Assembly: GCF_000424005.1 (NCBI RefSeq)
Contig: NZ_AUJB01000009.1
Span: 186,001-250,000 of the forward strand
Origin: Pseudobutyrivibrio ruminis CF1b
GTDB taxonomy: Bacteria; Bacillota; Clostridia; Lachnospirales; Lachnospiraceae
DNA length: 64,000 nucleotides
Direction: 5' to 3'
The notes beneath the pieces were generated by a model. It was not told where the DNA came from, made no database searches, and worked only from the letters and a program-made list of their open reading frames with translations. Positions 8,007 to 56,958 of the stretch are shown one piece after another; within the stretch, counting starts at the first letter, position 1; each line of letters begins with the position of its first letter. Made by a program: the position numbers and the translations under genes.

Positions 8007-8446
8007 CTCTTTCTTTTTGCCTATTTTTCTGTACGCTGGGGTCATAGGGCACTCCCTGTTCCGGATGCCATAGGCAGACGGTCTGCGTAAAGTTAGCCTG
8101 CAACTTTAGGCGTATCCTGTTATTCTTTTTTTCTTGTTTTTCATAATTTCTGTCCGGGGTCGTACATGCCCTATTTTTCAGGGGGTCAAGGTGGTACGGC
8201 ACCGTAATTTTCCCAAATTCATTTTTACAATTTTATAAGGCCTGTTTTTAAAGGCTGTACGGACGCGTACAACCAAGTATTTGTGCGGCTTTGAGCCTGT
8301 TACGGGTGCGTATTTTATGCCGTTTTAAAGCAGGGAGATTATACGGGTGCGTAGTACGGGAGCGTACAGATTTTTGTAAGGATTGTTTCGGATTTGCTTT
8401 CAATATGTCCCACATATAGGTAGAAAGCACGAAAGGAGGTTTTGGG
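8007..8446. promoter_or_regulatory. Non-coding control region with five TACG-N4-CGTA palindromes
   Basis: I see no credible gene in these 440 bases. They hold five copies of the 12-bp palindrome TACG-N4-CGTA at 8195-8206, 8258-8269, 8301-8312, 8342-8353 and 8355-8366; the last two are only 1 bp apart. There is also a perfect GCAGAC-G-GTCTGC palindrome at 8075-8087. The bipartite element motif follows at 8386. The density of identical palindromes ahead of the first element gene suggests an operator cluster, centromere-like site or replication origin. A transfer origin could also be here, but no nick site is recognisable. Confidence 0.6.
8386..8416 (+). promoter_or_regulatory. Element bipartite motif, copy 1
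   Basis: TTTCGGATTTG then, 20 bp from its start, TGTCCCACATA. It ends 30 nt before the ATG of the 8447 gene. The left half differs from consensus only at position 10. Confidence 0.75.
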
Positions 8447-9823
8447 ATGGATTACGCAGTGCTTAAAAAAATAGCAGAGTACTCAGATGTTTATGAAGTG
8501 GCGGCTCTTGGGATTAGCTCTGTAGAAGAAATGAAAACAGCATTAAAAAAGAAAGGGGCTACTGGTGGAACCTTTCAGAGAAGAACGGAGTACCTGACAG
8601 GGCAGCCTGCATATATCTCAATAAACGGAGATGAGTTGTCATATGACTACCAGACTTTGGCAGAGGATCTTCAAACATTGACAGAAAATCTTATTCCAAA
8701 GGGCTATGGGCAGGATTCTGAACAGGAACTGGAAGAAGAGATTGAGATGCTAAAAAGGCAGATTGCTGATTTGACATCTGAGCTGCAGGAGTACTCACAA
8801 AAGATTACGCAGCAGGAAGATTATATTAGCAAGCTTAAGGCAGAGCTTTCAAAGAGGGCTGGGGGATCCTTAAAGACAGAACTGGAAAGAAAAGTACTTG
8901 TGGCAAGCAGCATATCTGTGGGTCCAAAGGTGCATCCATCAGACGAATGTTTCCTTGTGGATCCTGACGAGTTATTGGATGTAGATGCTTGTGTTGCAAG
9001 GTATGGCGGAGAGCTCGATTCTTTCTATGAAGAGATACCGACAGATACCGAAGATGCAGGATTTGAGCCGGGGCATGAGCTGACAGAGAAAAATCATGCA
9101 CTTAGAACAATGAAGACTGTGGGAACAAAGAGGTTCTTTTCAAAGAGAGTCAGGGATAATGCTGAGGTCAAGAAGGTGGAATCAAGAGTAGGGCAGTTAT
9201 TCCCGGCGCATGGGGATGGTAAGAGTGAGCGTCAGAAAGAGAGGGATAAGATTCTCCGCAACAGATTCATTTCCTTAAATAACATTATCAAGTCTGACAG
9301 GCTTACCAATCAGGAAAAGCTCATGATGTATGCCATGAACTCTGAGTACCATAACACGCATATTGAGAGGCTTTTGACATATGCCGGGGCTCATTGTATC
9401 AATGCAGATTTCCTTATTTATATATTGGAAGATCCGGATACCTGCTCAACATATGAAAATACAGTGGCATTCTTAAGCCAGTTCGCAGATGCAAGCGAGT
9501 ATAGAATGAAGCTCAACCTGGCTCGTGAACTTATCGAGGGAAAGTGGTATATCACAGCAGACTATAACGGACGAAAGACAAAGTTTCAGCTTGTACCTAT
9601 TGATGAGATCAATGAACTTCGTAAAGCAGTAGGTCTTCCAATAAGTAAGTATTCTTATAAGGAAGAAGAGGAAGATGATCCTTTCCCTGACGATGTAGAA
9701 GAGGAAGTACCTAAGAAGCCGGATTTTGTTGAAGACATTGCTCCCGGTTCTTATGGCGATATTGATATTCCTGATGATGGATTTGAGATGCCGCCAATGG
9801 ACAATGAGGAATTACCTTTTTAA
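8447..9823 (+). CDS. Unknown element protein with coiled coil and SSB-like acidic tip
   Basis: I do not recognise a family for this 458-residue protein. It starts behind AAAGGAGG. Residues 95-150 form a coiled coil rich in E, L, K and Q. A basic, helical region follows at about 230-330 (KSERQKERDKILRNR, NQEKLMMYAMN). The last 60 residues are strongly acidic and end MDNEELPF. That tip closely resembles the acidic DDDIPF-type tail of bacterial SSB, which recruits replication and repair proteins. As first gene after the palindrome array it may act in replication, partition or single-strand processing during transfer. This is inference; no catalytic motif is seen. Confidence 0.8.
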   Translation: MDYAVLKKIAEYSDVYEVAALGISSVEEMKTALKKKGATGGTFQRRTEYLTGQPAYISINGDELSYDYQTLAEDLQTLTENLIPKGYGQDSEQELEEEIEMLKRQIADLTSELQEYSQKITQQEDYISKLKAELSKRAGGSLKTELERKVLVASSISVGPKVHPSDECFLVDPDELLDVDACVARYGGELDSFYEEIPTDTEDAGFEPGHELTEKNHALRTMKTVGTKRFFSKRVRDNAEVKKVESRVGQLFPAHGDGKSERQKERDKILRNRFISLNNIIKSDRLTNQEKLMMYAMNSEYHNTHIERLLTYAGAHCINADFLIYILEDPDTCSTYENTVAFLSQFADASEYRMKLNLARELIEGKWYITADYNGRKTKFQLVPIDEINELRKAVGLPISKYSYKEEEEDDPFPDDVEEEVPKKPDFVEDIAPGSYGDIDIPDDGFEMPPMDNEELPF

Positions 9824-9835
9824 GGGAGGGATATT

Positions 9836-10147
9836 ATGAGGCTTTTTATGAGTTTGACGGAAGCGGAAGTAAAACAGTTTGATAAAGCATGTGACAAAGC
9901 AGGCATGACAAGATCCCAGTATCTTAAGTGCCTGCTTAATGGCAGGCGTGATATCAGACCGCCAGTATTACAGTACAGGGAAATGATACATGCACTTGAA
10001 AGCATAGAGCGAGATCTAAAGGTTATTGCAATGAAAGATGATCTTTCCGATACAGACAAGCTTCTTATCATGCAAAAACTTTCGGATTTAAAAGAGTTGT
10101 TTTCAGGGAGATTTCATAAGGAGGTTTCGGATGGAAATAAAGGATAA
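9836..10147 (+). CDS. MobC-like relaxosome accessory protein
   Basis: This 103-residue protein matches small mobilisation proteins of the MobC type. It has a predicted ribbon-helix-helix amino terminus (MRLFMSLTEAEVKQFDKACDKAG, then MTRSQYLKCLL) and a helical second half. Such proteins bind near oriT and help the relaxase open the DNA. It starts behind GGGAGG 12 nt after the previous gene and overlaps the next small gene by 17 nt. The relaxase it would serve is at 14098. The family call is by pattern only. Confidence 0.7.
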   Translation: MRLFMSLTEAEVKQFDKACDKAGMTRSQYLKCLLNGRRDIRPPVLQYREMIHALESIERDLKVIAMKDDLSDTDKLLIMQKLSDLKELFSGRFHKEVSDGNKG

Positions 10148-10256
10148 AGAATATACGATGGATGAGGTCGTTGAGCTTGTAAATGCTCAGGAGGAAGACT
10201 TCATTATTAATATCAAGCTGGAGGTGGATGATGGCGACAGTGAAGGAAGTGTATAA
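10131..10256 (+). CDS. Small acidic protein, 41 residues
   Basis: A short gene with a good ribosome site (AAGGAGG) overlaps the end of the mobC-like gene by 17 nt and the start of the RadC-like gene by 29 nt. The product starts MEIKDKEYTMDEVVELVNAQ and has an acidic end (VDDGDSEGSV). No family is recognised. Tight coupling on both sides supports translation. It could be a regulator or adaptor of its neighbours. Confidence 0.6.
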   Translation: MEIKDKEYTMDEVVELVNAQEEDFIINIKLEVDDGDSEGSV

Positions 10257-10797
10257 GAATCAGCTTGATATGGCATCAGTAAGGCTGGTTAAAGATAAAC
10301 CTCTTATGAGTAAAACACCGATTCGTTCCCCGGAGGATGCGGTTAAAGCATTGGGCGAGTATCTGTGTCAGATGGATAGAGAGGTTATCTGCGTAATTAA
10401 CCTTAGAACGGACGGGATTCCTATTAACTGTAGTGTTTGTAGTATGGGTGCAATAGATCAGGCAATAGCTCACCCAAGGGAAATCATGAAAACAGCGATT
10501 CTCTCAAATGCAGTAAATATTGTAATGATGCATAACCATCCAAGTTCTAATCTTAATCCAAGTAAGGAAGATACAATGCTCACAGACAGGATGGTCACAG
10601 TTTGTGAGATCTTAGGGATTCCACTTGTGGATCATATTATTGTTGGAGGCGATAACAGTGAATTTTTCAGCTTTAGAGAGAAGGGTATCCTTCCTATGAA
10701 AGCGATAAAACTTGAAAGTGATTATAACAAACTGGATATGAACACACCGAGTGTTGCAGAAGAGCATGTGACCATGAGGCCAAGACGGCATAGGTGA
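10228..10797 (+). CDS. radC: RadC-like JAB/MPN-domain protein
   Basis: About 189 residues from the paired ATG codons 10228/10231, which sit behind GGAGG; an upstream in-frame extension lacks a ribosome site. The JAMM metal motif is clear: H101-N-H103 followed by PSSN and D114 (HNHPSSNLNPSKED). The N-terminal helix-hairpin-helix region of chromosomal RadC is absent, as is usual for element-borne RadC. The family is common on plasmids and ICEs, where its role is unsettled. A terminator follows directly. Confidence 0.85.
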   Translation: MMATVKEVYKNQLDMASVRLVKDKPLMSKTPIRSPEDAVKALGEYLCQMDREVICVINLRTDGIPINCSVCSMGAIDQAIAHPREIMKTAILSNAVNIVMMHNHPSSNLNPSKEDTMLTDRMVTVCEILGIPLVDHIIVGGDNSEFFSFREKGILPMKAIKLESDYNKLDMNTPSVAEEHVTMRPRRHR

Positions 10798-10801
10798 TAT
10801 T

Positions 10802-10832
10802 TTCCCTGGCAGAGATGTCAGGGATTTTTTTA
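10802..10832 (+). terminator. Rho-independent terminator after the radC-like gene
   Basis: Stem CCCTGGCA/TGTCAGGG (one wobble) with a GAGA loop and a run of seven T. The next element motif begins 7 nt after it, so a new transcription unit starts here. Confidence 0.88.
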
Positions 10833-10838
10833 TTTATG

Positions 10839-10869
10839 TTTCGGATTAGGGCTATGCATGTCCCACTAA
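10839..10869 (+). promoter_or_regulatory. Element bipartite motif, copy 2
   Basis: TTTCGGATTAG and TGTCCCACTAA, starts 20 bp apart, directly after a terminator and 43 nt before the next ATG. Confidence 0.78.
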
Positions 10870-10912
10870 CCTTATGAGAACAATCAAAGGCGCTTAAGAA
10901 GGGAGGTATTTA

Positions 10913-11203
10913 ATGTACAAGTTTGAAAAGAAAATCAAAGCGGCAGAAGAAAATGGTATCAGGTTCTCAGAAGGGCAAAAGACATACATAAGATGTGCTC
11001 GCATCAACGGGATAGATTTGCTTGACCATCTTTATGACAGGTATTCAAGAGATTATCTAAGTCATCCACATGATGAGAAGAGTAGCGAGTATCTTGCGGT
11101 TATCAGCGTGATCCTATCTGTCTCTGAGTACTTTGATGAAAACCTATGCGAGCTTGTTGACCAAATGATTGAGCAAAACAAGGTTTATCCGGTAAGGAAG
11201 TGA
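10913..11203 (+). CDS. Unknown 96-residue element protein
   Basis: First gene of the unit opened by motif copy 2, behind GGGAGG. The product is soluble, mixed-charge and mostly helical, beginning MYKFEKKIKAAEENGIRFSE. No domain is recognised. It ends 4 nt before the ArdC-like gene, so the two are coupled and may work together. DNA composition matches the rest of the element. Confidence 0.75.
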   Translation: MYKFEKKIKAAEENGIRFSEGQKTYIRCARINGIDLLDHLYDRYSRDYLSHPHDEKSSEYLAVISVILSVSEYFDENLCELVDQMIEQNKVYPVRK

Positions 11204-11207
11204 TCAT

Positions 11208-12164
11208 ATGGCAGAAAGACAAACCCGTGAAGAGAAGATGAGTGCTATCCAAAAGAAATTAGAGGATGGCGTCAGGGCAATCTTTACTTCTGAAAAGTAT
11301 CAGGAATATATCTCGGCCATGTCAAAGTTTCCGAGGTATTCCATCAATAACTGCATACTTATCGCAAGTCAGTTACCGGAAGCAAGCCTTGTTTGCGGTT
11401 TCAGAAAATGGCAGACCGAATTTAACAGGACAGTCAATAAAGGGGAGCACGGGATTATGATCTTGGCTCCTATCAAAGGTAAGACTGAGGTTGTAGAAGA
11501 GGTCTTCGATGAGAATAACAAGGCTGTTGTCGATGAGAACGGGAACCAAAAGACAGAGAAGGTAACAAGAGAGTATCAGACTTTCAGACCGGTATATGTT
11601 TTTGATGTTTCACAGACAAGCGGAGATCCGCTGCCTACTCTTGCATCGGAACTAAATGAAACTGTTGATTCTTTTGAGGAAATGAAAAGTGTTCTTATAA
11701 GTATCAGTCCAGTACCGGTGTCATTTGAAACAATAAACGGCGGTGCCAACGGATATTATTCTCCGACTGCAGGAAAGATTGTGATTGATGAACGTCTGCC
11801 GCAGCTTCAGATGCTAAAGACGATGGTTCATGAGATTGCGCATGCAACCCTTGGTCACGGCAGTAAAGAGGATAAGTGGGACAGGCAGACCAAAGAGGTT
11901 CAGGCGGAATCGGTAGCGTATTGGGTAACGCAGATGATAGGGCTCGATACATCTGACTATTCCTTTGGGTATATATCCGGTTGGAGTAAGGATAAGGAAG
12001 TTTCTGAGCTTAAGGAAAGCCTGGATGTAATCAAACAGACAGCGGATAAGCTCTCTTCTTCTATAGAAGAAAAGATTAAGGAACTAAGAAAAGAAAGGGA
12101 GTCTCTTCCTATGGTATCAGAGGAAAAAGAGCCATATATACCGACACCACACAAAAAAAGATAA
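11208..12164 (+). CDS. ArdC-like antirestriction/ssDNA-binding protein with zinc peptidase domain
   Basis: 318 residues. The N-terminal half (residues 1-135) has the ArdC N-terminal pattern: YSINNCILIASQ, a GFRKWQ block, VNKGEHGI, and TFRPVYVFDVSQT. The second half is an M78-like metallopeptidase domain with H208-E-I-A-H212 (MVHEIAH) and a downstream glutamate in QAESVAYWV. ArdC proteins bind single-stranded DNA and protect incoming plasmid DNA from restriction. This is relevant here because a type I system is encoded on the same segment. The charged C-terminal tail is probably a linker. Confidence 0.88.
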   Translation: MAERQTREEKMSAIQKKLEDGVRAIFTSEKYQEYISAMSKFPRYSINNCILIASQLPEASLVCGFRKWQTEFNRTVNKGEHGIMILAPIKGKTEVVEEVFDENNKAVVDENGNQKTEKVTREYQTFRPVYVFDVSQTSGDPLPTLASELNETVDSFEEMKSVLISISPVPVSFETINGGANGYYSPTAGKIVIDERLPQLQMLKTMVHEIAHATLGHGSKEDKWDRQTKEVQAESVAYWVTQMIGLDTSDYSFGYISGWSKDKEVSELKESLDVIKQTADKLSSSIEEKIKELRKERESLPMVSEEKEPYIPTPHKKR

Positions 12165-12180: not shown

Positions 12181-12211
12181 TTTCGGATTAGGAAGATACA
12201 TGTCCCACAAA
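12181..12211 (+). promoter_or_regulatory. Element bipartite motif, copy 3
   Basis: TTTCGGATTAG and TGTCCCACAAA, starts 20 bp apart, 17 nt after the ardC-like gene and 48 nt before the ATG of a small gene. No terminator precedes it. Confidence 0.78.
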
Positions 12212-12259
12212 TAGGATGAAAGGAAAAAATCCAGCACACAAAGATAAGGAGGTAGCGAT

Positions 12260-13408: not shown

Positions 13409-13777
13409 ATGGAGATTACAGATATCAGAATGAACCTGCTTGATAATGCAGGCGGTGTAAAAGCCATCGGAAGCTTTTCGCTTGATAATGCATTTGCTGT
13501 CCGTGGTATGAGAGTTATGGAGGATAAGAAAGGCAGAAACTTTGTTGCCTTTCCCTCCAGAGAACGTGCAAACGGTGAGTATGAAGACATTGCTTTCCCT
13601 CTTAGCAAAGAGTTCTATCATGAGATCACCGATGCCATTATGAAAGAGTTTCATCGTAAGCAGGAGGAAGTTGCCCAGAAGGCTCAGGACAAAAGCCACA
13701 ATCAGGATGAGTCCAAAGGTCAGGAGCAGACTCAGGCGGAAGATGCAGCTAAGCCCCATAAGGGACGTGGACGATAA
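13409..13777 (+). CDS. SpoVG-like nucleic-acid-binding protein 1
   Basis: 122 residues. Residues 1-85 have the SpoVG fold pattern: EITDIRMNLLD, then AVRGMRVMEDKKGRNFVAFPSR and DIAFPLSKEFYHEI. A glutamine/lysine-rich tail of about 35 residues follows (KSHNQDESKGQEQTQ). SpoVG proteins bind DNA and RNA and modulate gene expression in Firmicutes. A second copy follows 14 nt downstream, so the pair may have divided tasks. A ribosome site precedes the ATG. Confidence 0.88.
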   Translation: MEITDIRMNLLDNAGGVKAIGSFSLDNAFAVRGMRVMEDKKGRNFVAFPSRERANGEYEDIAFPLSKEFYHEITDAIMKEFHRKQEEVAQKAQDKSHNQDESKGQEQTQAEDAAKPHKGRGR

Positions 13778-13791
13778 GGAGGATCCTTGTT

Positions 13792-14046
13792 ATGCAGATT
13801 TCCGAAGTGAGGCTTAAAAAGAGGGATGGTGATGATAAGTTCCTTGCCAGTGGTTCCATCACCTTTGAAGGAATGTTTGTTGTATCCGGTATCAAGGTTA
13901 TGAGAGCAAAAAGCGGAGACCTTTTTGTGGCATATCCTTCATGGAAGAACTCAGATGGGGAGTACAAGGATGTATGTTTTCCTATGACAAAGGCTCTTCG
14001 AGAGGATATCAACATGCAGGTGCTTTCCAAGTACGAGGAACTTTAA
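13792..14046 (+). CDS. SpoVG-like nucleic-acid-binding protein 2
   Basis: 84 residues with the same SpoVG core (QISEVRLKKRD, VSGIKVMRAKSGDLFVAYPS, DVCFPMTKALREDI) but without the charged tail of copy 1. It starts behind AAGGAGGATC and ends just before a terminator-like hairpin that precedes the relaxase gene. It probably regulates element transcripts, but the sequence does not show a target. Confidence 0.88.
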   Translation: MQISEVRLKKRDGDDKFLASGSITFEGMFVVSGIKVMRAKSGDLFVAYPSWKNSDGEYKDVCFPMTKALREDINMQVLSKYEEL

Positions 14047-14097: not shown

Positions 14098-15954
14098 ATG
14101 GCAAAAGGTATTGTTGCAAAAATCTGGAATATAAAGGATGGCTCAAAGGGAAGAGGCGCCGGAGCACAGATTTCGGATTCCATTGACTACATAACAAATA
14201 GCGAAAAATGTGATGAGACCCTTGGAGGAAGCCAGGCTCAAATAGGAAGAGAACTTACCTATGTCACGAATGATGTTAAGACTTTGGAGGGGCTTTATGT
14301 CGGATGCCGCAATATCTCAGACATTAAGAATGCTACAAATGAAATGATGCAGGTAAAGGAATTTCACGGAAAGCTTGGAGGCAGGGTTGCACTACATGGC
14401 ATTATATCTCTTGACGCAGCAGAGTCGGATAAGAAGAATGCCGGGAAACTCATGATGCTACTAAATGACCTTTTGGAGGAGATATTTTCAAATAATCAGG
14501 CGGTTTATGCAGTGCATACCAATACTGAAAACCTTCATATCCATTTCATATTAAATACTGTTGGGCTTGGGGGAAAGAAGATTCATATGGATAAGTCTTT
14601 TATGAGTAAGGTATTTGATCCGGCTCTTAACAGGCTTGCTGAGAAGTATGGGTTTACGCCAAATGAAGCTTGGGTAAAAGAAAAGCAGATGGATAAGGTT
14701 TCCTTTGGAGAGAGAGTAGTTAAGCTAAGGCAGGCTGTTGATGAGGCGGTAGAGCGGTCTGAGGATTTTGATGAGTTTTTAAAAGACTTAAAAAAGCAGG
14801 GGATTGTGGTTAATTGCGGAAAATATCTAAGTCTTAAGGCAGAGGGGATGACAAGAGGTATTAGAAGCTATCGGCTTGGCTCCTTGTATACGGTTGAGGC
14901 AATCAGAGACAGGATTCTTAATAAGCGAGAGGAACTGATACGAAGCGAAGTCGGAGAGCATATAGGAAGAAAGAAGGACCCTGCATCAGTCTTTGTAAAG
15001 ACATCTCCGCTAAAGAAGTTTAAGGATATGTCAGAGGATGAAAAAAAGGAATGCATTAGGGCTTTAAAACTTGGCAGGAATCCTTGGAGAGAAAGGCAGG
15101 AGTCAAACTGGCAGCTTCAAAGGCTTTCTGATGAGTTTAGGCGCACGGCGGGTGTATATGAGCTTATAAGGGTATATGCGCCAAATACCGGTAATGCTCA
15201 GGATGCCTTGGATAATATTGTAGCCCGTCAGAAGGAAATAGCAGCAGAAAAGAAGGCTGTCAGGGAGAACCTAAAGACCTATCAGCCAATCATAAGGCTC
15301 TACAAGGAGATAAAAAAGTATGCAAGAAAAGCGTACCTATATGAGTTTGCTGCCTGTGATGAGTATTTATCTTCCTACATGGAATATAAAAAGCTCTGTG
15401 AAAGATTAGAAAACGGATATGGAAAGAGCGTTCTTGAAGTATCAGCCTATATTGAAGATCAGGAGAATCAGATACTGTATGCCACGGCACAGTCAAAGGA
15501 GCTTTCTGATGAATATAAAACTATTTTGAGATTCAAGGAAAATGAGCTCAAACAGGGCATTTCAGAATATACATCCCTTTATGATGCAATCGGCTTTTCA
15601 AAGGCAAGGACGAGAGCCATGCAGATGGGTGTATTTGAAAGCAGTATAAGGTTCATAGCTGCGGATGGAGCTGATGGGGCATACATAAGAGTTGTTATCA
15701 CACCAGACATTATTGAAGGGAAACGTACTGAAAAGGCTATTGTTACCGTATTTGATAAATCAGGGAAACAGTTATCTGAGATTTCTTCAAAGGACATGTC
15801 TATAAAAGACTTTAACCGTAGCATCTCAGAACTAAAGGCAGAGTACGGATTATATAAATGCCATTCATTTGATAAGAGGGAGGATGCAGAGAGTTTTGTA
15901 GAAAAGCAGCAGGAAGAAAAAGCGAAAAAAGTAAGACGCCAGGTTTCGGATTAG
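14098..15954 (+). CDS. Relaxase (MobP/VirD2-like), conjugative nickase
   Basis: 618 residues from the ATG at 14098, which has GGAGG six bases upstream; a TTG four codons earlier is less likely. The N-terminal relaxase domain carries the histidine motif H140...H147-I-H149-x3-N153 (HTNTENLHIHFILN) and tyrosines near residue 27 and 60 that could be nucleophiles. A helical C-terminal region follows from about 290. The protein would nick oriT and lead the strand through VirD4. Its stop codon lies inside motif copy 4 (VSD-stop is encoded by the TTTCGGATTAG half), so the downstream promoter-like element is fused to the gene end. Confidence 0.9.
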   Translation: MAKGIVAKIWNIKDGSKGRGAGAQISDSIDYITNSEKCDETLGGSQAQIGRELTYVTNDVKTLEGLYVGCRNISDIKNATNEMMQVKEFHGKLGGRVALHGIISLDAAESDKKNAGKLMMLLNDLLEEIFSNNQAVYAVHTNTENLHIHFILNTVGLGGKKIHMDKSFMSKVFDPALNRLAEKYGFTPNEAWVKEKQMDKVSFGERVVKLRQAVDEAVERSEDFDEFLKDLKKQGIVVNCGKYLSLKAEGMTRGIRSYRLGSLYTVEAIRDRILNKREELIRSEVGEHIGRKKDPASVFVKTSPLKKFKDMSEDEKKECIRALKLGRNPWRERQESNWQLQRLSDEFRRTAGVYELIRVYAPNTGNAQDALDNIVARQKEIAAEKKAVRENLKTYQPIIRLYKEIKKYARKAYLYEFAACDEYLSSYMEYKKLCERLENGYGKSVLEVSAYIEDQENQILYATAQSKELSDEYKTILRFKENELKQGISEYTSLYDAIGFSKARTRAMQMGVFESSIRFIAADGADGAYIRVVITPDIIEGKRTEKAIVTVFDKSGKQLSEISSKDMSIKDFNRSISELKAEYGLYKCHSFDKREDAESFVEKQQEEKAKKVRRQVSD

Positions 15955-15974
15955 ACCAAGGTGTGTCCCACATA
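15944..15974 (+). promoter_or_regulatory. Element bipartite motif, copy 4
   Basis: TTTCGGATTAG and TGTCCCACATA, starts 20 bp apart. The left half contains the relaxase stop codon. The right half ends 9 nt before AAGGAGG of the cpaF-like gene. Confidence 0.78.
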
Positions 15975-15995
15975 AAGGGTAGAAAGGAGGATTTT

Positions 15996-17237
15996 ATGAG
16001 CGAGCTTAGGTATGAACCTAAATCGAAGGCTCCGCTCAAACTTGAATCTGATTTCTACCCTGTTTTTTCGCTCTTTTCTGATAGGGAATTGAATGCGAAG
16101 TTTATGCAGCTAAAGGCAAATATCTGTGATCTTAACCCTGCGCTTGTAACAAAGTGCATTACGGGAACGGAGCAGGATTTCATAATGCTCATGGACAGAG
16201 CAAAGGACTTTATTAGGGAGCGCCTCAGGGGGATTTCCGAGGAAGAGGAAAGGAAGCTCTTAGAAATGTTCCGGCAGTGTGTGTTTGGGTATTATGTCCT
16301 AACTCCGCTTGTAGAAGCAAAGGAAGTATCTGATATCAAGGTACTTGATTATGACCATATCGTAGTAAAGGCAAATGGAAGAAGATATGTGGCAAAGTGC
16401 CAGTTCTTTGACCAGACAGATTATAAAGATTGGTTTTCAAGGATCCTTCGTATTCACAGACTTGGAAAGAGTGAGGAATATGCTCTTTCACACTGCACGG
16501 ACAGAAAAGGGGTAAAGGATTTCTATCTTCGTATTGATGTACAGCTATCCTGTATCACTTCCACAGAGAAGAACAATATTCATATCCGAAAGATGCCGAA
16601 GTCAAAGCTTTCCTGGGATTACCTTATTGAGAATGGAATGCTTGATGAAGAAATGATTGCGTATTTGAAGGACAGAATATGTGCAGGCTACGGATTTTTG
16701 ATATCAGGCAGAGGCGGATCCGGTAAATCCACACTCCTTAACAACATGATTGACTGCATCCCATTTGGGGAGTCAGTGCTTGTATCGCAGGAGTCGGATG
16801 AGTTGTATTCCAATGTACATCCTCAGATTCAGTTTGAGCATACGATGACGGTTCGGAAAAAAGACACAGTAACAGATTTTTCATTGGAGGACGAGCTTCG
16901 GCTTGGTCTATTACAGGACATTGATAATTTCATCATCGGAGAGATCAAAGGCGGTGAGGCATTATATGTATTCACCACAGCCATGAGCACAGGCGCAAGA
17001 TTTTTTGGAACGATTCATGCCAATGATGCGGCAAGTAGTGTAATAAGGCTGGCTCAGTGTGCAAGGTATATTTCGGATTATCCTATGGAGACGCTTTGTG
17101 AGATGCTTACCTGCACGCCCTTTGTGCTTATCCATATGAGCCATTTTTCGATAGATGAAATCCTTGAAGTAAGCGGCTTTGATGAAAAGACAAAGAGACT
17201 ACAGTTTAACGAGATCTTCAGGAAGGAGGACGCATGA
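15996..17237 (+). CDS. CpaF/TadA-type secretion ATPase 1 (VirB11 superfamily)
   Basis: 413 residues from ATG 15996 behind AAGGAGG; the frame is open further upstream only through the motif. An N-terminal domain precedes the RecA-like core with Walker A SGRGGSGKST near residue 240, an Asp box, Walker B-like NFIIGEIKGGEA near 310 and the His box GTIHANDA near 342. Such hexameric ATPases drive Tad pilus assembly or type IV secretion. A prepilin peptidase gene overlaps its stop by 4 nt. A second paralogue is at 46995, so the element has two motors of this class. Confidence 0.9.
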   Translation: MSELRYEPKSKAPLKLESDFYPVFSLFSDRELNAKFMQLKANICDLNPALVTKCITGTEQDFIMLMDRAKDFIRERLRGISEEEERKLLEMFRQCVFGYYVLTPLVEAKEVSDIKVLDYDHIVVKANGRRYVAKCQFFDQTDYKDWFSRILRIHRLGKSEEYALSHCTDRKGVKDFYLRIDVQLSCITSTEKNNIHIRKMPKSKLSWDYLIENGMLDEEMIAYLKDRICAGYGFLISGRGGSGKSTLLNNMIDCIPFGESVLVSQESDELYSNVHPQIQFEHTMTVRKKDTVTDFSLEDELRLGLLQDIDNFIIGEIKGGEALYVFTTAMSTGARFFGTIHANDAASSVIRLAQCARYISDYPMETLCEMLTCTPFVLIHMSHFSIDEILEVSGFDEKTKRLQFNEIFRKEDA

Positions 17238-19389: not shown

Positions 19390-20354
19390 AGATAGATTCC
19401 GGAATTATAAAAATGCTTATTGTAGTGTTTGCAATCACGATTATAGCAGCATTGATCTTAAGACATGTGATGGAAAAGAAGGGACTTTATGATTCTTCCC
19501 CAGAGGTAGAAACAGCAGTAGAAGAAACATCCGGGAAAATGGTGGATGATGAGGAAACCAAGGAAGCTGATAATGAAAGCAAGGTAGTAAGCGCAGGTAA
19601 TGGCTATGAGAAGATTTCAGCAGATAAGGCAGTCAGTGAAAACACTAGTGTTCAGGTTGAAAAAATCTTAACGGAGGTTGCAGACGATGGGAAGGGGAAC
19701 CAGGAGCTTAAATATACCAGCTACTATATGTCAGATGTAAATCTCACGGCTCTTTCCGATTCAACGGCAGATTATACGCAGTGCATTACAGAAGACGGGT
19801 TTGATGATTCTAAGATAGAAAAGGTTAGTTTTGCAGATGCCTTTGGTTTTAGCTATCAAGGATGTACTGATATGGCAGAGTTTTTTGAACTTGCAAGGAA
19901 GTCATCGGGCTTTGACTATGACATGACAGATGCTTCCTATGACGAAGAAAAGTATGAGCTCATGAAAGAGGAAAGCTATGAATTTAATGGAGATTGCAGC
20001 ATTCTCTATTCCATGCTTGGAGACATGGATTATGACAGATTGATTCAATCCACATGCTATTACAGCCTTTCTGAGCTGGAGGATGGCACCAAGTACCCTA
20101 CGATGTTTACTGCTATTGTGCAGTATGTAAAAGGGGACATTACTTACACAAAGACCGCTTATCTTGGATTCTCATACTACAAGGAAGGTGAGACCGGAGG
20201 ATGTGGCTGCGGATCTGATTCTGATTGCGGCTCTTGTGAAGAAGAAAGCTGCGAAGGGACAGATGGATGCTGTGGTGATACTGATAGCGCTTGTCCTTCA
20301 TGTGGAGGAGTAGGCGGCTGTACAGAAGATTGCACAGGAAATTGCTGTAAGTAA
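19386..20354 (+). CDS. Membrane-anchored protein with a 13-cysteine C-terminal tail
   Basis: 322 residues. A single N-terminal membrane segment (about residues 8-26) is followed by an acidic linker and an extracellular domain. The last 52 residues hold 13 cysteines spaced among Gly, Ser, Asp and Glu (patterns GGCGCG, GDCC-like pairs, CPSC, CCK end). Such a tail could bind metal, form a disulfide knot or crosslink to the next secreted protein, which is also cysteine-rich. The gene sits in the CpaF1 operon, overlapping upstream by 4 nt and followed 11 nt later by the secreted protein gene. No family is recognised. Confidence 0.8.
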   Translation: MKIDSGIIKMLIVVFAITIIAALILRHVMEKKGLYDSSPEVETAVEETSGKMVDDEETKEADNESKVVSAGNGYEKISADKAVSENTSVQVEKILTEVADDGKGNQELKYTSYYMSDVNLTALSDSTADYTQCITEDGFDDSKIEKVSFADAFGFSYQGCTDMAEFFELARKSSGFDYDMTDASYDEEKYELMKEESYEFNGDCSILYSMLGDMDYDRLIQSTCYYSLSELEDGTKYPTMFTAIVQYVKGDITYTKTAYLGFSYYKEGETGGCGCGSDSDCGSCEEESCEGTDGCCGDTDSACPSCGGVGGCTEDCTGNCCK

Positions 20355-30028: not shown

Positions 30029-30547
30029 ATGAAAGACGATTTATTGATAAAGCGGATCCGCGCCGGGGATGAGGACGCTGCGGAGGAACTGGTACGAAAG
30101 TTTTATGCTCAGGTCATGAGATTCTGCAGATGGCAATGCAGTAACAATGATCTGGCTGAGGATCTGACGCAGGAAACATTTCTCAAGGTATTCAAGAGCC
30201 TTGACCAATACAGAAACAGAGGGCACTTTAAGGCATGGCTTTTCTGTGTTGCGAGAAGTGTATGTATTGATGAACTTCGGAAACGACGGATTGAATATGA
30301 ACCGGACATAGATATCAGCGAAATTGGTGACGAATATGACGGTATCAGGCATGTGGAGGATGAGGATGAACTTTACAGGCTACTGTCCGGGTTGCCCGAC
30401 GAACAAAAAGAAGCGATCATCCTTCATTACATGGAAGGCTTCTCTTATCGCGAGATAGGAGAAATCTTGAATATTCCGTATAGAACTGTGCAAAGCAGGG
30501 TGAATCTGGCCATAAAGACCTTGCGTCAGAAGGGAGTAAATAGATGA
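30029..30547 (+). CDS. ECF-type RNA polymerase sigma factor
   Basis: 172 residues. Region 2 is clear (DLAEDLTQETFLKVFKSLDQYRNRGHFKAWLFCVARSVC, split here only for description) and region 4 is the usual HTH (LPDEQKEAIILHYMEGFSYREIGEILNIPY, RTVQSRVNLA). It heads a five- or six-gene operon encoding membrane proteins, an ABC transporter and VanY, and overlaps the next gene by 4 nt. It probably autoregulates this envelope-stress cassette in concert with the following membrane protein. Confidence 0.92.
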   Translation: MKDDLLIKRIRAGDEDAAEELVRKFYAQVMRFCRWQCSNNDLAEDLTQETFLKVFKSLDQYRNRGHFKAWLFCVARSVCIDELRKRRIEYEPDIDISEIGDEYDGIRHVEDEDELYRLLSGLPDEQKEAIILHYMEGFSYREIGEILNIPYRTVQSRVNLAIKTLRQKGVNR

Positions 30548-34699: not shown

Positions 34700-34730
34700 T
34701 TTCGGATTAGGGCTCTCGGTGTCCCACATA
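34700..34730 (+). promoter_or_regulatory. Element bipartite motif, copy 5
   Basis: TTTCGGATTAG and TGTCCCACATA, starts 20 bp apart, 19 nt after a terminator and 48 nt before the ATG of the small pilin-like gene. Confidence 0.8.
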
Positions 34731-34778
34731 ACTTACGAAGGGCAAGGAAGTCCTACCAAACGAAAGGAGAAAACGGAT

Positions 34779-43768: not shown

Positions 43769-44332
43769 ATGGATGCTAGAGAGTATTTGGAAATATTGCA
43801 TGTTGCGGAAAGGCTAAAAGATACCCCAAGACATTGCACAACAACAAAACGCAGGACAGAAAGCGTAGCTGAACATAGTTGGCGTATTTCGCTTATGGCT
43901 TTTTTGTTAAGACACGAATTTAAAGATATAGATATAGATAAGGTAGTTGATATGTGCCTTATACATGATCTTGGCGAGTGCTTTACAGGCGATATTCCAA
44001 CTTTTGTAAAGACTGACTCTGATAGAGAAGTTGAAGATTCATTATTAAATCAGTGGGTAAAAACGCTTCCTGCAGAATTATCTGAAGACATAGCGGCACT
44101 TTATAAAGAAATGGATGCACAAGAAACTAAGGAAGCTAAGCTTTATAAATCACTAGATAAACTAGAAGCCTTGATTCAGCATAATGAATCGCCACTTGAT
44201 ACTTGGTCTGAAAATGAGTTTGAACTCAACAAGACCTACGCATTTGATACAGTAGCGTTTTCCTCTTGGCTTACAGAATTGCGAGAGGTAATTTTAGAAG
44301 ACACTATGAAAAAGATAGAATCGGGGAGTTAA
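43769..44332 (+). CDS. HD-domain hydrolase (YfbR-like)
   Basis: 187 residues. The HD metal motif is spread over VAEHSWRISLMAF (first His), CLIHDLGECFTGD (HD) and the later LDKLEAL Asp. The pattern matches HD-domain nucleotidases of the YfbR/YqeK-like group, often found beside resistance genes on mobile elements. It starts behind GGGAGG and is followed by the cat gene after 29 nt. Likely activity is dephosphorylation of a nucleotide; the substrate is unknown. Confidence 0.82.
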   Translation: MDAREYLEILHVAERLKDTPRHCTTTKRRTESVAEHSWRISLMAFLLRHEFKDIDIDKVVDMCLIHDLGECFTGDIPTFVKTDSDREVEDSLLNQWVKTLPAELSEDIAALYKEMDAQETKEAKLYKSLDKLEALIQHNESPLDTWSENEFELNKTYAFDTVAFSSWLTELREVILEDTMKKIESGS

Positions 44333-44361
44333 ACAACTTCAAGTTTGTAGGGGTAATAAAA

Positions 44362-45012
44362 ATGAACTATAAGATAATTGATAAAGAAAAATACTATAGA
44401 AAAGGAGTGTTTCGCCACTTCTCGGAAGACTGTAAATGTTCGACTTCAATGACTGCAAGAATTGACGTTACGTATCTCGTTGAGTATTCCAAAAGAAATG
44501 GGACAAAGTTTTATATAAATTTCCTTTATATTCTATCAAAAGTTTTGAACTCACGTGAAGATTACAGAATGGGGTATCTTTGGCAGACAGATGAGCTGAT
44601 TTGCTATGACGTAATAAATCCTACGCAGTATGTTTTTCATGAAGATACGGAAACCTGTACGCCGGTATATACAGAGTATTTTGAGGAATATAAAAAGTTT
44701 TACACTGGTGCTTTAAATGATGTTGAGGAAGCGAAGAAGACTCGTGAATATGGTTTAGACATGGCAAATCATCCAAACTGGTTTGATGCATCTTATATAT
44801 CATGGCTTTCATATGACTCGCTTAATATTGAATTGCCTGATGGACATTTATTCTTTGCTCCTATTATCAATTGGGGGAAATACAGAGAGGAAAACGGTAG
44901 ACTTGTTATGCCTGTAACTGTTCGACTTAATCACGCAATTGCAGATGGATATTTGGTTGCTAATGTATTTCGTCTTTTGGAGAAGGAAATCAATTCTTTT
45001 GTTGAGTCATAA
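44362..45012 (+). CDS. cat: Chloramphenicol acetyltransferase, CatA-type
   Basis: 216 residues, the normal length for type A CAT. The active-site segment is RLNHAIADGYLV with catalytic His191; the residue before it is Asn rather than the frequent His. Other family blocks are visible (YINFLYILSKVLN, WTDELICYDV-like, and SWLSYDSLNIELPDG). It acetylates chloramphenicol in the cytoplasm. The ribosome site is modest (TAGGGGT). No attenuator leader is seen. Some CAT homologues of gut bacteria do not confer resistance, so activity is not certain. Confidence 0.85.
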   Translation: MNYKIIDKEKYYRKGVFRHFSEDCKCSTSMTARIDVTYLVEYSKRNGTKFYINFLYILSKVLNSREDYRMGYLWQTDELICYDVINPTQYVFHEDTETCTPVYTEYFEEYKKFYTGALNDVEEAKKTREYGLDMANHPNWFDASYISWLSYDSLNIELPDGHLFFAPIINWGKYREENGRLVMPVTVRLNHAIADGYLVANVFRLLEKEINSFVES

Positions 45013-45260: not shown

Positions 45261-45291
45261 TTTCGGATTAGCAAGGCTCATGTCCCACATA
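45261..45291 (+). promoter_or_regulatory. Element bipartite motif, copy 6
   Basis: TTTCGGATTAG and TGTCCCACATA, starts 20 bp apart, 50 nt before the ATG of the Maff2-like gene. The whole 5' region is a near-duplicate of that at copy 5. Confidence 0.8.
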
Positions 45292-45341
45292 ACTTACGAA
45301 GGGCGAAGGATGTCCTACCAAAACGAAAGGAGAAAACGGAT

Positions 45342-52890: not shown

Positions 52891-53052
52891 ATGTTAAATA
52901 GGGTAACGTTTGTTATAATAAAGGGTAGAAATAATGTCGATATATAATTATTAGGATTTATGCAGTTGAATTGAGTTTTTTGGACAAAAATGTGTTTGAG
53001 TCCGTTTTATAGTACAGGAAATATGGCATATTGAATATGGGAGGTTGTATCT

Positions 53053-53343
53053 ATGGAAATCTTTCATATGGATAATGATAATACACACTTGTTTTTTCGC
53101 TTTGGATACAAGGTTTCACCTGAGGATGAATTCTCTCAGATAAGGGAGTTCCTTATAGGGAGAGGCGTTGAAATAGGTAAGGCCGAAATGATGCCTTATT
53201 GCGATGTATATAAGTGCAAAGTGAATGAGTTGGAATTTAATCTAATCACGGATTTGAATTATGGGTGCTCTATTTGTGCGGATGAAGGCTGCATAAAAGA
53301 TCTGGAGGAGATGTTACAAGATGGAGATAGCTACAAGCAATGA
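53053..53343 (+). CDS. Unknown 96-residue protein, partner of the nuclease-like gene
   Basis: The product begins MEIFHMDNDNTHLFFRFGYK and has a C-terminal pair of cysteines (CSICADEGCIKD). It starts behind GGGAGG and overlaps the next gene by 23 nt. No domain is recognised. Tight coupling suggests it acts with the PD-(D/E)xK-like protein. The preceding 200 bases hold an AT-rich promoter region (TATAAT at 52914) and no element motif, so this unit is controlled differently. Confidence 0.7.
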   Translation: MEIFHMDNDNTHLFFRFGYKVSPEDEFSQIREFLIGRGVEIGKAEMMPYCDVYKCKVNELEFNLITDLNYGCSICADEGCIKDLEEMLQDGDSYKQ

Positions 53344-54031
53344 TTACATCACTTTTGATGAATTTATAAGCAGATTATTTGAACTTAGAGCAGAGTGTAA
53401 TCATGAACATTACTTATGTGAAATATTTATTCCATTTTTAAAGTCTTGCAGCATAGATGGAGTAAAGATAGTCCCAGTTTTTGATGACCGAGCAACAGGA
53501 CCCAAGACAGAGGCTACGACACCAACAAAAGAGCGTATGGCAACGATATGCGCAAAGAAGGATGATGGGAACTATGTTGTTCCGGACTATATTTATGTTC
53601 CATTGGAATATAGTTTTAATAATCCTATGAATCCTTATCTTATGGTAGAAACGAAGAAGCCGGCTATCTTAGATGATGGAATCCATTATCGGGATCTAAG
53701 TGACTATATTAGTGAAAATGAGAGCGAGATTCGAGCTGAGATAAACGCATTTGACAGAGGATATGTTTTATTTACAGATGGGCTGACCTGGATGTTTTTG
53801 ACAATAGTTGATGATCAGATTGTAGAAAGCCCAAAGTATGAGACAATTCGACTGATAGATAAATATGAAAAATACCATAAGACAAACAGAGTAAAAGCGA
53901 AGCACCAAGATAAACATGTTGATCTCAGTTATATAGGACTTGGTAGATTTGACGTAGAAATAGAGCCGAAGGAATGGGATAGGTTGAAGGAACAAATTAG
54001 AAAAATGCTTACAGAGCTTAAGGGAGAATGA
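53321..54031 (+). CDS. PD-(D/E)xK nuclease-like protein (HsdR N-terminal type)
   Basis: 236 residues. The pattern VVPDYIYVPLEY ... PYLMVETKKPAI (residues 85-115) gives PD and ExK motifs of the nuclease fold seen at the start of HsdR and related restriction proteins, with a following FDRGYVLFTDGLTWMFL block typical of that domain. No helicase follows, so it is a stand-alone nuclease domain. It starts behind GGAGGAG and could be a small defence or anti-competitor system with the gene before it. Confidence 0.65.
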   Translation: MEIATSNDYITFDEFISRLFELRAECNHEHYLCEIFIPFLKSCSIDGVKIVPVFDDRATGPKTEATTPTKERMATICAKKDDGNYVVPDYIYVPLEYSFNNPMNPYLMVETKKPAILDDGIHYRDLSDYISENESEIRAEINAFDRGYVLFTDGLTWMFLTIVDDQIVESPKYETIRLIDKYEKYHKTNRVKAKHQDKHVDLSYIGLGRFDVEIEPKEWDRLKEQIRKMLTELKGE

Positions 54032-54252
54032 TGAATATGTCTATAGATAAGTTTTGGATAGCATATGAATATGACCGCGAGAAAATGACTGCAGAGCGTG
54101 TTTATAGGTATGATCATGGGCTTATGGAGCGAAAGAAAATTGATGGAACATGGTTTGAAGAAAGGGAAGCACTCTGTATCTTTTGTGGTGAAGATTGGGA
54201 TTACGAGGATATTACTGAAGAAGAGGCAAATAAGATAACCGTCAAGTTTTAA
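54028..54252 (+). CDS. Unknown 74-residue acidic protein
   Basis: Overlaps the nuclease-like gene by 4 nt. The product is aromatic and acidic (DKFWIAYEYDREKM, FCGEDWDYEDITEEE). No family is recognised. Two further ATG codons within 10 bases are possible starts. Confidence 0.6.
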   Translation: MMNMSIDKFWIAYEYDREKMTAERVYRYDHGLMERKKIDGTWFEEREALCIFCGEDWDYEDITEEEANKITVKF

Positions 54253-54263
54253 AGGTATTTGTT

Positions 54264-54494
54264 ATGGCAAAAATGAAAGCAGGGGATACAGCCTTTATTG
54301 TGGAATCGAATAGAATTGTACGAGAGGTAGAGATAAAAAGCTTTGCCGGTGGTATGTATCTCATAAAGTTTAAGGATTCCGGAGGCGGAATAAAAGTTAA
54401 GGAACATCGCTTGTTTGCAACAAGGGAGGATGCAGAGTCATCTATACAAACAAAGCAAAAAGGAAGGACAAAATCACCATATGATTATATGTAG
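54264..54494 (+). CDS. Unknown 76-residue basic protein
   Basis: The product begins MAKMKAGDTAFIVESNR and has a beta-rich core (GGMYLIKFKDSGGGIKVKEH). Small proteins of this style occur on many gut elements. The spacing of 11 nt after the previous gene supports co-transcription, although the ribosome site is weak. Confidence 0.55.
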   Translation: MAKMKAGDTAFIVESNRIVREVEIKSFAGGMYLIKFKDSGGGIKVKEHRLFATREDAESSIQTKQKGRTKSPYDYM

Positions 54495-54524
54495 ATAAAA
54501 CAAAAAAGAGAGGGTATTTTCAAA

Positions 54525-56501
54525 TTGGGTAAGGTTATGAAGAAGTACACAAATTTCAAGGATTTCATGTACGACAATTACTATAATGAAATCTGGGCAG
54601 CTCTTAATCCGCATATTATTCGGCAAAAGAGCAGTTTTGAGAGTGATCAGATTTACGATATCAATTATGCTGAGTTATCAGATTTTAAGGTATCCGGGGT
54701 TACATTTAAGGATCTGGGAGAAGACAAGCTTGAAATCCGCACATCTATAGATGCGGTTGTTGAGGTTCGTGGAAGGACCCGTTACGGTTACGAGACGGAT
54801 TCTGCCAATCGAACTTATAATGTGTTTTTTGAAGCACTGCTACGGAACGGCCTTCATGATGTATCAATCACAAAGGTAGATGATTATGAAGAAAACAGGT
54901 TTGATAAGAATAGAAGCTTAAGTCAGAGCCTCGTACCATATATGTATGAAGAGGATGTTGATAAGCACGCCGAGGACTTCCTTCGGAGAAATTATGGGAA
55001 AGCATTGCTCCAACCTATGAGGATAGACCCCTTCGAGGTTGTTGAAGCGATGGGTATGAAAATGTATTATGCGCCTCTTGGAGATAAGGTTTTTGGTAAG
55101 ACTTACTTCGGAGAGGAAACGGTCACAGTTTACGATGATCTGGTAAATAAGAACGAGCTTCAAATAGTTGCTACTCCCGGAACCATGCTCATAAATCCCG
55201 ATGTTTTCTTTATGAGAAACATAGGAACCGCATTTAACACTATCATTCATGAGTGCGTTCACTGGGACAGGCATAGAAGAGCATTTGAACTGCAAAGTGT
55301 TCTTGAAGGTGGAGCTAATCACATTTCTTGTGAAATGGTTGAGGGTGATTATAACGGAATTGGACCCGAAGAATCAGCCCTAAAATGGATGGAATGGCAG
55401 GCTAATCAGCTAGCACCAAGAATACTTATGCCGGAAAAGACTACAAGGTGGATATTTAATAAGTATTTGCAGGATATTCACACGACACATCCCAACTGGC
55501 GTTATGCTGAGGTTTTGCAGAACACTGTTGGAAGTGTTGCGAATTATTTTTCGGTATCATTACTTTCTGCAAAATTACGTCTTTTTGAACTTGGATTTGA
55601 AGAGGTTGAAGGTACTTTTGTATATTGTGATGGAATGATGTTACCGCCCTATGCGTTCAGAAAAGGGACATTGGATAAACAACATAGCTTTGTGGTTGAT
55701 GAACAGAACCTGTTAATGAGCATCGCTACTAATGCTAAATTATTGGAGTTATATCTTCATGGAGTTGTTGTATATGCAAATTGTACACTTGCATGGAATG
55801 ATCCTAAATATGTTGAATTAAACGAAAACGGGAAGTACATTTTGACGGAGTATGGTCTTGAGCATGTTGATGAGTGCTGCTTCCTGTTTAGACGAGACTA
55901 TAATGCAAGTGACCAGTATAAAGACACATTCTACCGCAGATGCTTCCTTTGCAGGGAAGTGGATGCCGATGAATATGTACCTGTAAAATATGATCCAGAC
56001 CATAAGATAAATCAGTCCAAGGAGCAGATGCAGAACGAGATTGATAAGATTATGGCTCAGATAAATGATGAAATGCAGGATGTCCGTAGTGGAATGAAAG
56101 CAGGGTTCGCTGGCGCACTGGATTTCTATATGACCGACAATAACATTACGGCAGAAGAATTGTCGGGAAGATGCGGAGTAAGTACAGTAAGCATAAGCAA
56201 TTATCGAAACGGTATTGATCCCAGTATCGAAAAAGGTACAGCATTAGCTTTATGTAAGGGACTTTACCTTCAGGAGCATCAGGCAATCTATTTCCTAAAT
56301 GCAGCAGGTTACAATATTGAAGCGTTAGCTGTATCAAATGTGTTTATCAGAATCCTTATTACAGATCACATGGATGATACGTGGGAACAGTGGGTTGAAA
56401 AGCTGATAATGGCAAAGGTTACTAATGATTGGATTCCAAATAAGAATCCGGTTGTGAAGATGGTAAAGGAGAGAATGGAAAAAAACAAAAAAATTTCATG
56501 A
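54525..56501 (+). CDS. Large ImmA/IrrE-type metalloprotein with C-terminal XRE domain
   Basis: 658 residues; the start at 54525 is a TTG, and an ATG at 54537 may be better. An N-terminal domain of about 170 residues is not recognised. The central M78-type peptidase motif is HECVHWD (H242, E243, H246) with EWQANQLAPRILMP as the downstream zinc-ligand segment. Near residues 528-590 a helix-turn-helix is visible (LSGRCGVSTVSISNYRNG). ImmA/IrrE peptidases cleave repressors of mobile elements; here protease and DNA-binding parts are on one chain. It may control element excision or a defence response. Large size is unusual for the family. Confidence 0.8.
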   Translation: MGKVMKKYTNFKDFMYDNYYNEIWAALNPHIIRQKSSFESDQIYDINYAELSDFKVSGVTFKDLGEDKLEIRTSIDAVVEVRGRTRYGYETDSANRTYNVFFEALLRNGLHDVSITKVDDYEENRFDKNRSLSQSLVPYMYEEDVDKHAEDFLRRNYGKALLQPMRIDPFEVVEAMGMKMYYAPLGDKVFGKTYFGEETVTVYDDLVNKNELQIVATPGTMLINPDVFFMRNIGTAFNTIIHECVHWDRHRRAFELQSVLEGGANHISCEMVEGDYNGIGPEESALKWMEWQANQLAPRILMPEKTTRWIFNKYLQDIHTTHPNWRYAEVLQNTVGSVANYFSVSLLSAKLRLFELGFEEVEGTFVYCDGMMLPPYAFRKGTLDKQHSFVVDEQNLLMSIATNAKLLELYLHGVVVYANCTLAWNDPKYVELNENGKYILTEYGLEHVDECCFLFRRDYNASDQYKDTFYRRCFLCREVDADEYVPVKYDPDHKINQSKEQMQNEIDKIMAQINDEMQDVRSGMKAGFAGALDFYMTDNNITAEELSGRCGVSTVSISNYRNGIDPSIEKGTALALCKGLYLQEHQAIYFLNAAGYNIEALAVSNVFIRILITDHMDDTWEQWVEKLIMAKVTNDWIPNKNPVVKMVKERMEKNKKIS

Positions 56502-56505
56502 AAAT

Positions 56506-56524
56506 CATTAAGTGGGACTTAATG
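56506..56524. repeat. Palindrome CATTAAGTGGGACTTAATG
   Basis: Two 8-bp arms around GGG lie just after the ImmA-like gene. A related palindrome (CATTAAATACCACTTAATG, two arm mismatches) lies at 56605-56623, with a terminator between them. They may be operator sites. Confidence 0.6.
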
Positions 56525-56543
56525 GATAGAATAGGCAATTAGC

Positions 56544-56594
56544 GAGCCTTCACAGTTTTCTGTTTTAGAAGAGAGCTGGGAAGGCTCTTTTTTT
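56544..56594 (+). terminator. Terminator after the ImmA-like gene
   Basis: Stem GAGCCTTC/GAAGGCTC, containing a smaller ACAG/CTGT hairpin, followed by seven T. Confidence 0.8.
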
Positions 56595-56604
56595 GTGCGT
56601 CAAA

Positions 56605-56623
56605 CATTAAATACCACTTAATG
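56605..56623. repeat. Palindrome CATTAAATACCACTTAATG, second copy
   Basis: Related to the copy at 56506-56524; the right arm is identical and the left arm differs at two positions. Confidence 0.55.
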
Positions 56624-56696
56624 TTAATGCGTTTTTATAGCGCTTATACTGAGCGTAGCTCAGCAAGAACAAGGCTGAGAAATACCATTTCATAGT

Positions 56697-56834
56697 GACG
56701 TCACGAAAGGGTATGGACATAAATCTCAAAAGGTCAGAATGAAGAATTTTGACTGAAAGAGATGGTTCATAACCATAGATTCGTGCGTCGCTTTTTTTTG
56801 CAAGTCTCGGGAACCACATGTCCATATCCTTTCG
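56697..56834 (+). ncRNA. Structured leader or small RNA with competing terminator and long stem
   Basis: Two stems exclude each other. Stem 1 pairs GACGTCACGAA (56697-56707) with TTCGTGCGTC (56780-56789) and is followed by T8, so it looks like a terminator. Stem 2 pairs CGAAAGGGTATGGACAT (56704-56720) with its near-complement at 56818-56834. Inside stem 1 are ATCTC/GAGAT enclosing GTCA/TGAC, and GGTT-CAT-AACC, giving a branched fold. This is the architecture of a riboswitch-like attenuator or an antisense-controlled leader ahead of the 56960 gene. No known class is recognised. The opposite strand cannot be excluded. Confidence 0.4.
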
Positions 56835-56856
56835 GACACATCGAAAGGAGCAGAAC

Positions 56857-56958
56857 ATGAACAGAAAAAAACAAAGTTCCCAATTTACCTCAGAAAAGTT
56901 TTTCCGGAGTTCCGGATTAGGGCAAATCGTGCCCCACGACCAAGTAGGAGGTAAATAA
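56857..56958 (+). CDS. Possible 33-residue upstream peptide across motif copy 7
   Basis: ATG 56857 follows AAAGGAG at 6 nt, and the frame runs through motif copy 7 to a stop 1 nt before the next ATG. The product begins MNRKKQSSQFTSEKFF. Close spacing suggests translational coupling with the next gene. If motif 7 is a promoter, transcripts starting there would lack it. Low confidence. Confidence 0.3.
   Translation: MNRKKQSSQFTSEKFFRSSGLGQIVPHDQVGGK
56910..56940 (+). promoter_or_regulatory. Element bipartite motif, copy 7 (divergent)
   Basis: TTCCGGATTAG and TGCCCCACGAC, starts again exactly 20 bp apart, with several substitutions. It ends only 4 nt before the TAGGAGG of the 56960 gene, tighter than any other copy. 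Confidence 0.65.

Follow-up and report, generated by a model that had tools for sequence, protein, structure and literature searches.

Self-activating plasmid sigma factors, sigma-like genes on conjugative transposons and genomic islands that are triggered by a helper element are already known. SigN (ZpdN) of the Bacillus subtilis plasmid pBS32 is described as a self-promoting sigma factor with a predominantly plasmid-restricted regulon; it has been experimentally proved, is controlled by LexA and is tied to plasmid hyper-replication and cell death (PMC6751061). Conjugative transposons of Clostridioides difficile carry sigma-like genes, recognised by sequence and many of them accessory, and in the cited accounts their promoter consensus remained to be identified (PMC3158075, PMC7438776). 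The genomic islands SGI1 and MGIs are triggered by the helper master regulators AcaCD/SetCD (PMC4207636, PMC5704250). Here, a window of 64,000 nucleotides from Pseudobutyrivibrio ruminis CF1b (contig NZ_AUJB01000009.1, positions 186,001 to 250,000) was analysed by purely computational means. The window harbors a putative integrative and conjugative element with a relaxase, a VirB4-like ATPase and a coupling protein, and seven repeated sites in it are very probably promoters of this element that are read by RNA polymerase together with an element-encoded sigma factor (56960-57988).

The sites follow the consensus TTTCGGATTAG-N9-TGTCCCACATA, which has 22 fixed bases. A preliminary description of this DNA had listed seven copies of such a bipartite pair in one orientation, and all seven were recovered where it had placed them, on the forward strand (Table 1). 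The 20-bp offset from TTTCGGATTAG to TGTCCCACATA is fixed and a purine directly precedes the right half in 7/7 copies, as had been noted. The half strings, which had been presented as shared, are exact at 15944, 34700 and 45261; the remaining copies are not literally identical, with one mismatch to the fixed bases at 8386 and at 12181, two at 10839 and five at 56910, the last of which escapes a 3-mismatch search. The chance expectation of the motif is 0.00 (100 shuffles of the window). A genome-wide search for the pair, which had been proposed as a check, covered 3.27 Mb in 16 contigs with a shorter core and at most two mismatches; it returned eight matches, consisting of the seven sites and a single extra one with two mismatches on another contig. 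The sites lie ahead of operon ATGs as described, with 19-50 nt between the end of the right half and the ATG, and hairpin-like sequences with T-runs, putative terminators, are found ahead of three copies.

Related elements carry their own versions of these sites. A search for orf458 matched 10/397 genomes of the family, including its own and several weakly, and a scan of GTDB contigs for g51569 yielded 15 loci, 14 labelled as Lachnospiraceae or as genera or species presumed to belong there and one only as 'bacterium'; viral_contigs contained no relative of g51569. Comparison of thirteen element copies, the window included, gave five types, and every type has a site version of its own at the same operon starts (74 sites in total; Table 1, where G and L labels are our own handles). 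A site stands ahead of virB11 in 13/13 copies and ahead of the g45240 homologue in all 12 copies whose contigs cover that gene. Across types, the A, B and C patterns are without a match except for two A-like sites in type B, and the D pattern has two stray 2-mismatch matches (L044, L110). Each D element has an eighth, one-mismatch site (e.g. L040:2832) before no mapped gene, which is excluded from the 74.

In four of these types the sites can be aligned in a single frame. The hexamers that align as the putative -10 element are CACATA (A), CAAATG (C), TATATG (D) and CAAGTA (E), with GATT, TAAT or CAAT 16 bp ahead. Exactly 7 bases after the hexamer there is a purine in 51/51 distinct sites, preceded by a pyrimidine (+6) in 48/51, whereas 20,000 shuffles of the 24-base downstream stretches gave maxima of 46 for the purine and 24 for the pyrimidine-purine pair. 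These counts include the eighth D sites and leave out two D-pattern matches within coding sequence, which have a purine at both +7 and +6 (with them, 53/53 and 48/53). Four type-E regex matches with 4 mismatches were dropped as chance from the frame, +7 and sigma-A tests (purine at +7 in 2/4), and type B was omitted from all three as degenerate; the sites are not independent, elements inside one type being closely related. The pattern at +6/+7 has the usual place and sequence of a putative transcription start. By sequence, the spacing of the two blocks and the position of the purine agree with what is expected of sigma-dependent promoters, in which the -35 and -10 blocks are separated by about 16-18 bp and a purine start follows the -10 at 6-8 nt. 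A TTGACA/TATAAT-like housekeeping pair is absent from the seven sites of the window, where the best pairs have 4-6 mismatches.

The preliminary description had left it undecided whether the motif is a promoter or an operator. As an operator, it would be the target of an activator or repressor that the element encodes and that controls ordinary sigma-A promoters. Conserved, asymmetric, bipartite sites ahead of operons are compatible with this notion, and the element does encode other proteins annotated without function, such as orf458, which also diverges between types. Nevertheless, sigma-A-like hexamer pairs (at most 3 mismatches of 12) are depleted at the sites, with 1/70 against 15.7 expected from first-order Markov resampling rather than exact shuffles, and the start-like purine is fixed 7 nt after the right half, which makes an operator improbable. 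The part of the claim that stands is the promoter of an element regulon, favored by the computed -35/-10 spacing, the purine 7 nt on, the homologous sites in relatives and the sigma-like gene behind one copy. The reading that suits the seven sites best is that of -35/-10 promoters whose geometry is ordinary and whose sequence is unusual.

In the copies at 15944 and 56910 the right half is very close to the ribosome site, and a non-standard geometry or an RNA-level element had been considered. If the -10 hexamer is taken to be the final six bases of the right half, transcripts of these tight copies are predicted to start just before the ribosome site, at 15981 and 56947, 15 and 13 nt before the ATGs, and therefore no unusual geometry is needed. 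An RNA-level leader element, mediating antitermination or translational control, would be in keeping with sites that end 19-50 nt before ATGs and that in some cases seem to come after terminators. Such an element is nonetheless very unlikely: no Rfam family was found in the window (nor in the eight loci searched with it), the halves vary between types while the frame is constant, few sigma-A-like promoters lie within 60 bp upstream to yield such a leader, and the sites also occur in tandem arrays.

Promoter 7 itself sits inside a predicted hairpin of the sigma-gene leader (56883-56956). The stretch AUUUACCUC is complementary to the sigma ribosome site at 56948-56956, and the fold of a read-through RNA has a z of -3.45, while an RNA begun at the predicted start 56947 is without this complement. 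Two C-type leaders, L060 (13225-13345) and L058 (15740-15866), also fold the ribosome site away (z of -5.4 and -3.1); in a fourth leader, L130, a terminator-like hairpin does not include the ribosome site. Should this arrangement prove real, transcripts leaking in from upstream would give no sigma protein, which in the window would then come from the private promoter alone.

No Pfam model, and no sigma model among them, scored over its cut-off for the product of 56960-57988, and NCBIfam and PDB sequence searches gave nothing useful. A match to Phage_TAC_13 (E 0.0011, under its cut-off) was taken as chance. PHROG sigma models matched weakly, with one member each (E 0.006 and 0.051), and an hhalign comparison of the profile with three host sigma factors was collinear, with a probability of 67.5% and E 5e-5 for one comparison. 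In Foldseek searches with the predicted structure of one family member, the best 12 of 67 matches were sigma-factor or sigma-bearing polymerase entries, as were the best 18 of 113 for a second member that is 20% identical, with no match of either divergent member at E ≤0.001. VIA, a second look at Foldseek matches only, gave such entries for 50/50 among the matches listed. For many structure hits the matched chain is named sigma; others were judged from titles and chain letters, where we take RPSB/RPSD to mean sigma-B/sigma-D. Predicted helical sigma domains lie in the order of regions 1.2/2/3 and then 4 in the 56960-57988 product, which is the likely reader of the seven sites and would be expected to bind core RNA polymerase and to direct promoter-specific starts.

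A sigma homologue is present in the genomes of 11/13 element copies, and six copies (types A, B and D) have a site of their own type ahead of the sigma gene. Of the proteins compared, the sigma homologues have diverged furthest, with 21.5% identity between types against 30-75% for the others, a comparison that favors higher identity for the others, as these were measured as best local matches and the sigma proteins at full length (for L063, the longer open part only). In the type-B element L054, a full sigma gene (15796-16857) is followed about 3 kb on (19501-20191) by pieces of two more, one of them 94.5% identical to the window sigma over 73 aa; these pieces appear to be traces of sigma gene turnover.

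The window also encodes an extracytoplasmic function (ECF) sigma factor in its cargo region (30029-30547), accompanied there by ABC-transporter and VanY-like genes. As a clear sigma factor within the span of the seven sites it might be thought to read them. This is scarcely credible, since no motif copy precedes the ECF gene and a search of the remaining 12 copies gave no match to it, not even in G481, whose element shares the seven sites; in an ECF sigma regulon the cognate ECF gene would be expected alongside the sites, yet among the 13 copies this gene is matched only in the window.

The preferred reading, an element-encoded sigma factor acting on its own promoters, suggests the following scheme. 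The left half would be the -35 region; about 16 bp downstream, the right half would end in the -10 hexamer, 7 nt after which transcription would start. Because the sigma gene stands behind one of its own promoters, activation would be self-reinforcing; all transfer operons would be switched on together and host promoters ignored, and in related elements the corresponding positions would be occupied by diverged sigma/promoter pairs. From the sites, their positions, their conservation and the predicted fold, all computed here, we infer RNA polymerase binding, start sites, feedback and sigma dependence of transfer.

The motif had also been regarded as private to this element, which did not hold, as A-type sites are also present outside any element of this kind in G005, G374 and G250, as are weaker ones in G014. 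A 2-mismatch core search of 145 genomes matched 36, including its own, mostly as scattered singles. Because a reversed control pattern matched at least as many genomes, follow-up was confined to the exact match in G005 and to a pair of matches in G014. In G005, which is of the same genus, the one exact A site closes a C, C, C, A series that lies ahead of an integrase gene rather than a transfer operon, and a comparable series precedes an integrase in G014. Both integrase genes adjoin GDSL-lipase and MBOAT genes (assigned with Pfam for G005 and by eye for G014); a sigma homologue was found in neither genome.

Searching with the C-type pattern matched 16/299 family genomes, four of them with a single, lone one-mismatch match that resembles chance, and 19/20 C-site contig regions were examined (L166 was left out). 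Within 300 bp, 10/19 regions have an additional A, D or E site on the same strand and 0/19 on the opposite strand, with 0.0 in resampled sequence; the D pattern used for this test had been widened after the arrays were seen. The lone-match regions L141, L142, L143 and L146 were kept in this test and set apart in the array count. Among 17 loci (15 of the 19 together with G005 and G014), at least two sites occur in 16 and at least two types in 14, one of which (L148) counts only through a borderline E match; several of the loci nearly duplicate one another. The arrays consist of two to six sites, often of mixed types, before integrase or orf458-like genes, and a purine is found at +7 in 53/56 distinct sites. 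Their C sites have more than one sub-form, perhaps for further sigma types beyond those found.

The genes behind the examined arrays encode tyrosine recombinases or are orf458-like (by eye), and L175 also has a MobA/MobL relaxase. A search with window proteins of 15 stretches of up to 20 kb each, which did not include L147, L148, L156 and G279:C36, found no transfer machinery of this family except distant ATPase matches in L176. Behind a C and D array at L170:4512-8802, there are consecutive tyrosine recombinases, two of them complete according to Pfam and a third recognised by eye as a piece; we take this to be a Tn554-like arrangement. On the simplest reading, the arrays would let hitch-hiking elements respond to sigma factors from several helper elements. 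It is rather probable that Lachnospiraceae conjugative elements are split into sigma/promoter dialects, and that unrelated hitch-hikers carry multi-dialect arrays through which any of several helpers would trigger excision or mobilisation, a multi-key satellite switch.

Table 1. Predicted promoters and associated features of the window, site versions of the related elements and array loci.
Feature	Position	Strand	Sequence	Remarks
Promoter 1	8386..8423	+	-35 block TTTCGGATTTG 8386-8396; -10 CACATA 8411-8416; predicted +1 G 8423	orf458, NikA-like and RadC genes (putative operon extent), ATG 8447
Promoter 2	10839..10876	+	-10 CACTAA 10864-10869; predicted +1 G 10876	orf96 and ArdC-like genes, ATG 10913
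Promoter 3	12181..12218	+	-10 CACAAA 12206-12211; predicted +1 G 12218	small ORF (ATG 12260), DUF5688, two SpoVG-like genes, relaxase
Promoter 4	15944..15981	+	-10 CACATA 15969-15974; predicted +1 A 15981	VirB11-like ATPase, ATG 15996; overlaps 3' end of relaxase gene
Promoter 5	34700..34737	+	-10 CACATA 34725-34730; predicted +1 G 34737	ATG 34779; genes with VirB4-like, NlpC/P60, coupling protein
Promoter 6	45261..45298	+	-10 CACATA 45286-45291; predicted +1 G 45298	second, Tad-like gene group, ATG 45342
Promoter 7	56910..56947	+	-10 CACGAC 56935-56940; predicted +1 G 56947	weakest match; sigma-like gene, ATG 56960
Anti-Shine-Dalgarno stretch	56883..56891	+	AUUUACCUC	upstream of promoter 7
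Candidate cryptic sigma-70-type factor	56960..57988	+		342 aa; putative reader of promoters 1-7
Type A (window, G481)			TTTCGGATTAG-N9-TGTCCCACATA	seven sites each
Type B (G480)			degenerate A-like	four sites by pattern, two by eye
Type C (G418, G483, G485)			TTTAGTAATGAG-N7-CCAACCCAAATG	five sites each
Type D (G186, G486, G487)			CTGCAGATT-N14-CCTATATG	seven sites each
Type E (G488, G490, G492, G279)			TTCTGCAATCAG-N13-CAAGTA	six, five, six and three sites; small differences among the four
Array loci	L038:630-860, L039:6170-6440, L140, L144, L145, L148-L156, L158, L160			

Several neighbouring genes deserve mention. A tyrosine recombinase (4747-5682) lies among hsdS genes, and the region 4747-7963, in which it stands beside several hsdS (specificity) pieces on the strand opposite to the main hsd genes, resembles a switching type I restriction locus. 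Two SpoVG-like genes are found in tandem at 13409-14046, and the three relatives mapped in this region match them as a pair. Between the two transfer gene groups, a chloramphenicol acetyltransferase-like gene (44266-45012) adjoins an HD-domain gene. Downstream of the sigma gene, DUF5702, TadE-like, A24 peptidase and FHA genes occupy 58267-62508, and a DUF5702-like gene also follows the sigma gene in G481 and, by eye, in G389.

These results would give element-encoded sigma factors of Lachnospiraceae conjugative elements a concrete role, that of driving their own transfer operons through promoters unlike the housekeeping ones, and would link a protein family beyond Pfam to a likely function. 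The sites may also be usable as a search key that reveals hitch-hikers and predicts which conjugative elements are able to wake them. The open-access literature searched yielded no conjugative-element sigma factor paired with transfer-operon promoters, no split into promoter dialects and no multi-dialect hitch-hiker arrays.

As far as the cited accounts describe these systems, the arrangement proposed here resembles SigN in that a mobile-element sigma factor would read promoters on its own element, one of its own among them, and differs from it in that the predicted regulon comprises the conjugation machinery, Pfam does not cover the protein and there are several diverged sigma/promoter pairs. 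With the C. difficile transposons it shares sigma-like proteins coded by conjugative elements, whereas here the promoters are paired with a candidate reader. Like the islands that respond to AcaCD/SetCD, the hitch-hikers have promoters that would answer to a helper regulator; unlike those islands, which depend on the activator of one helper family, they carry, in front of a single integrase or orf458-like gene, consecutive sites that belong to several sigma types.

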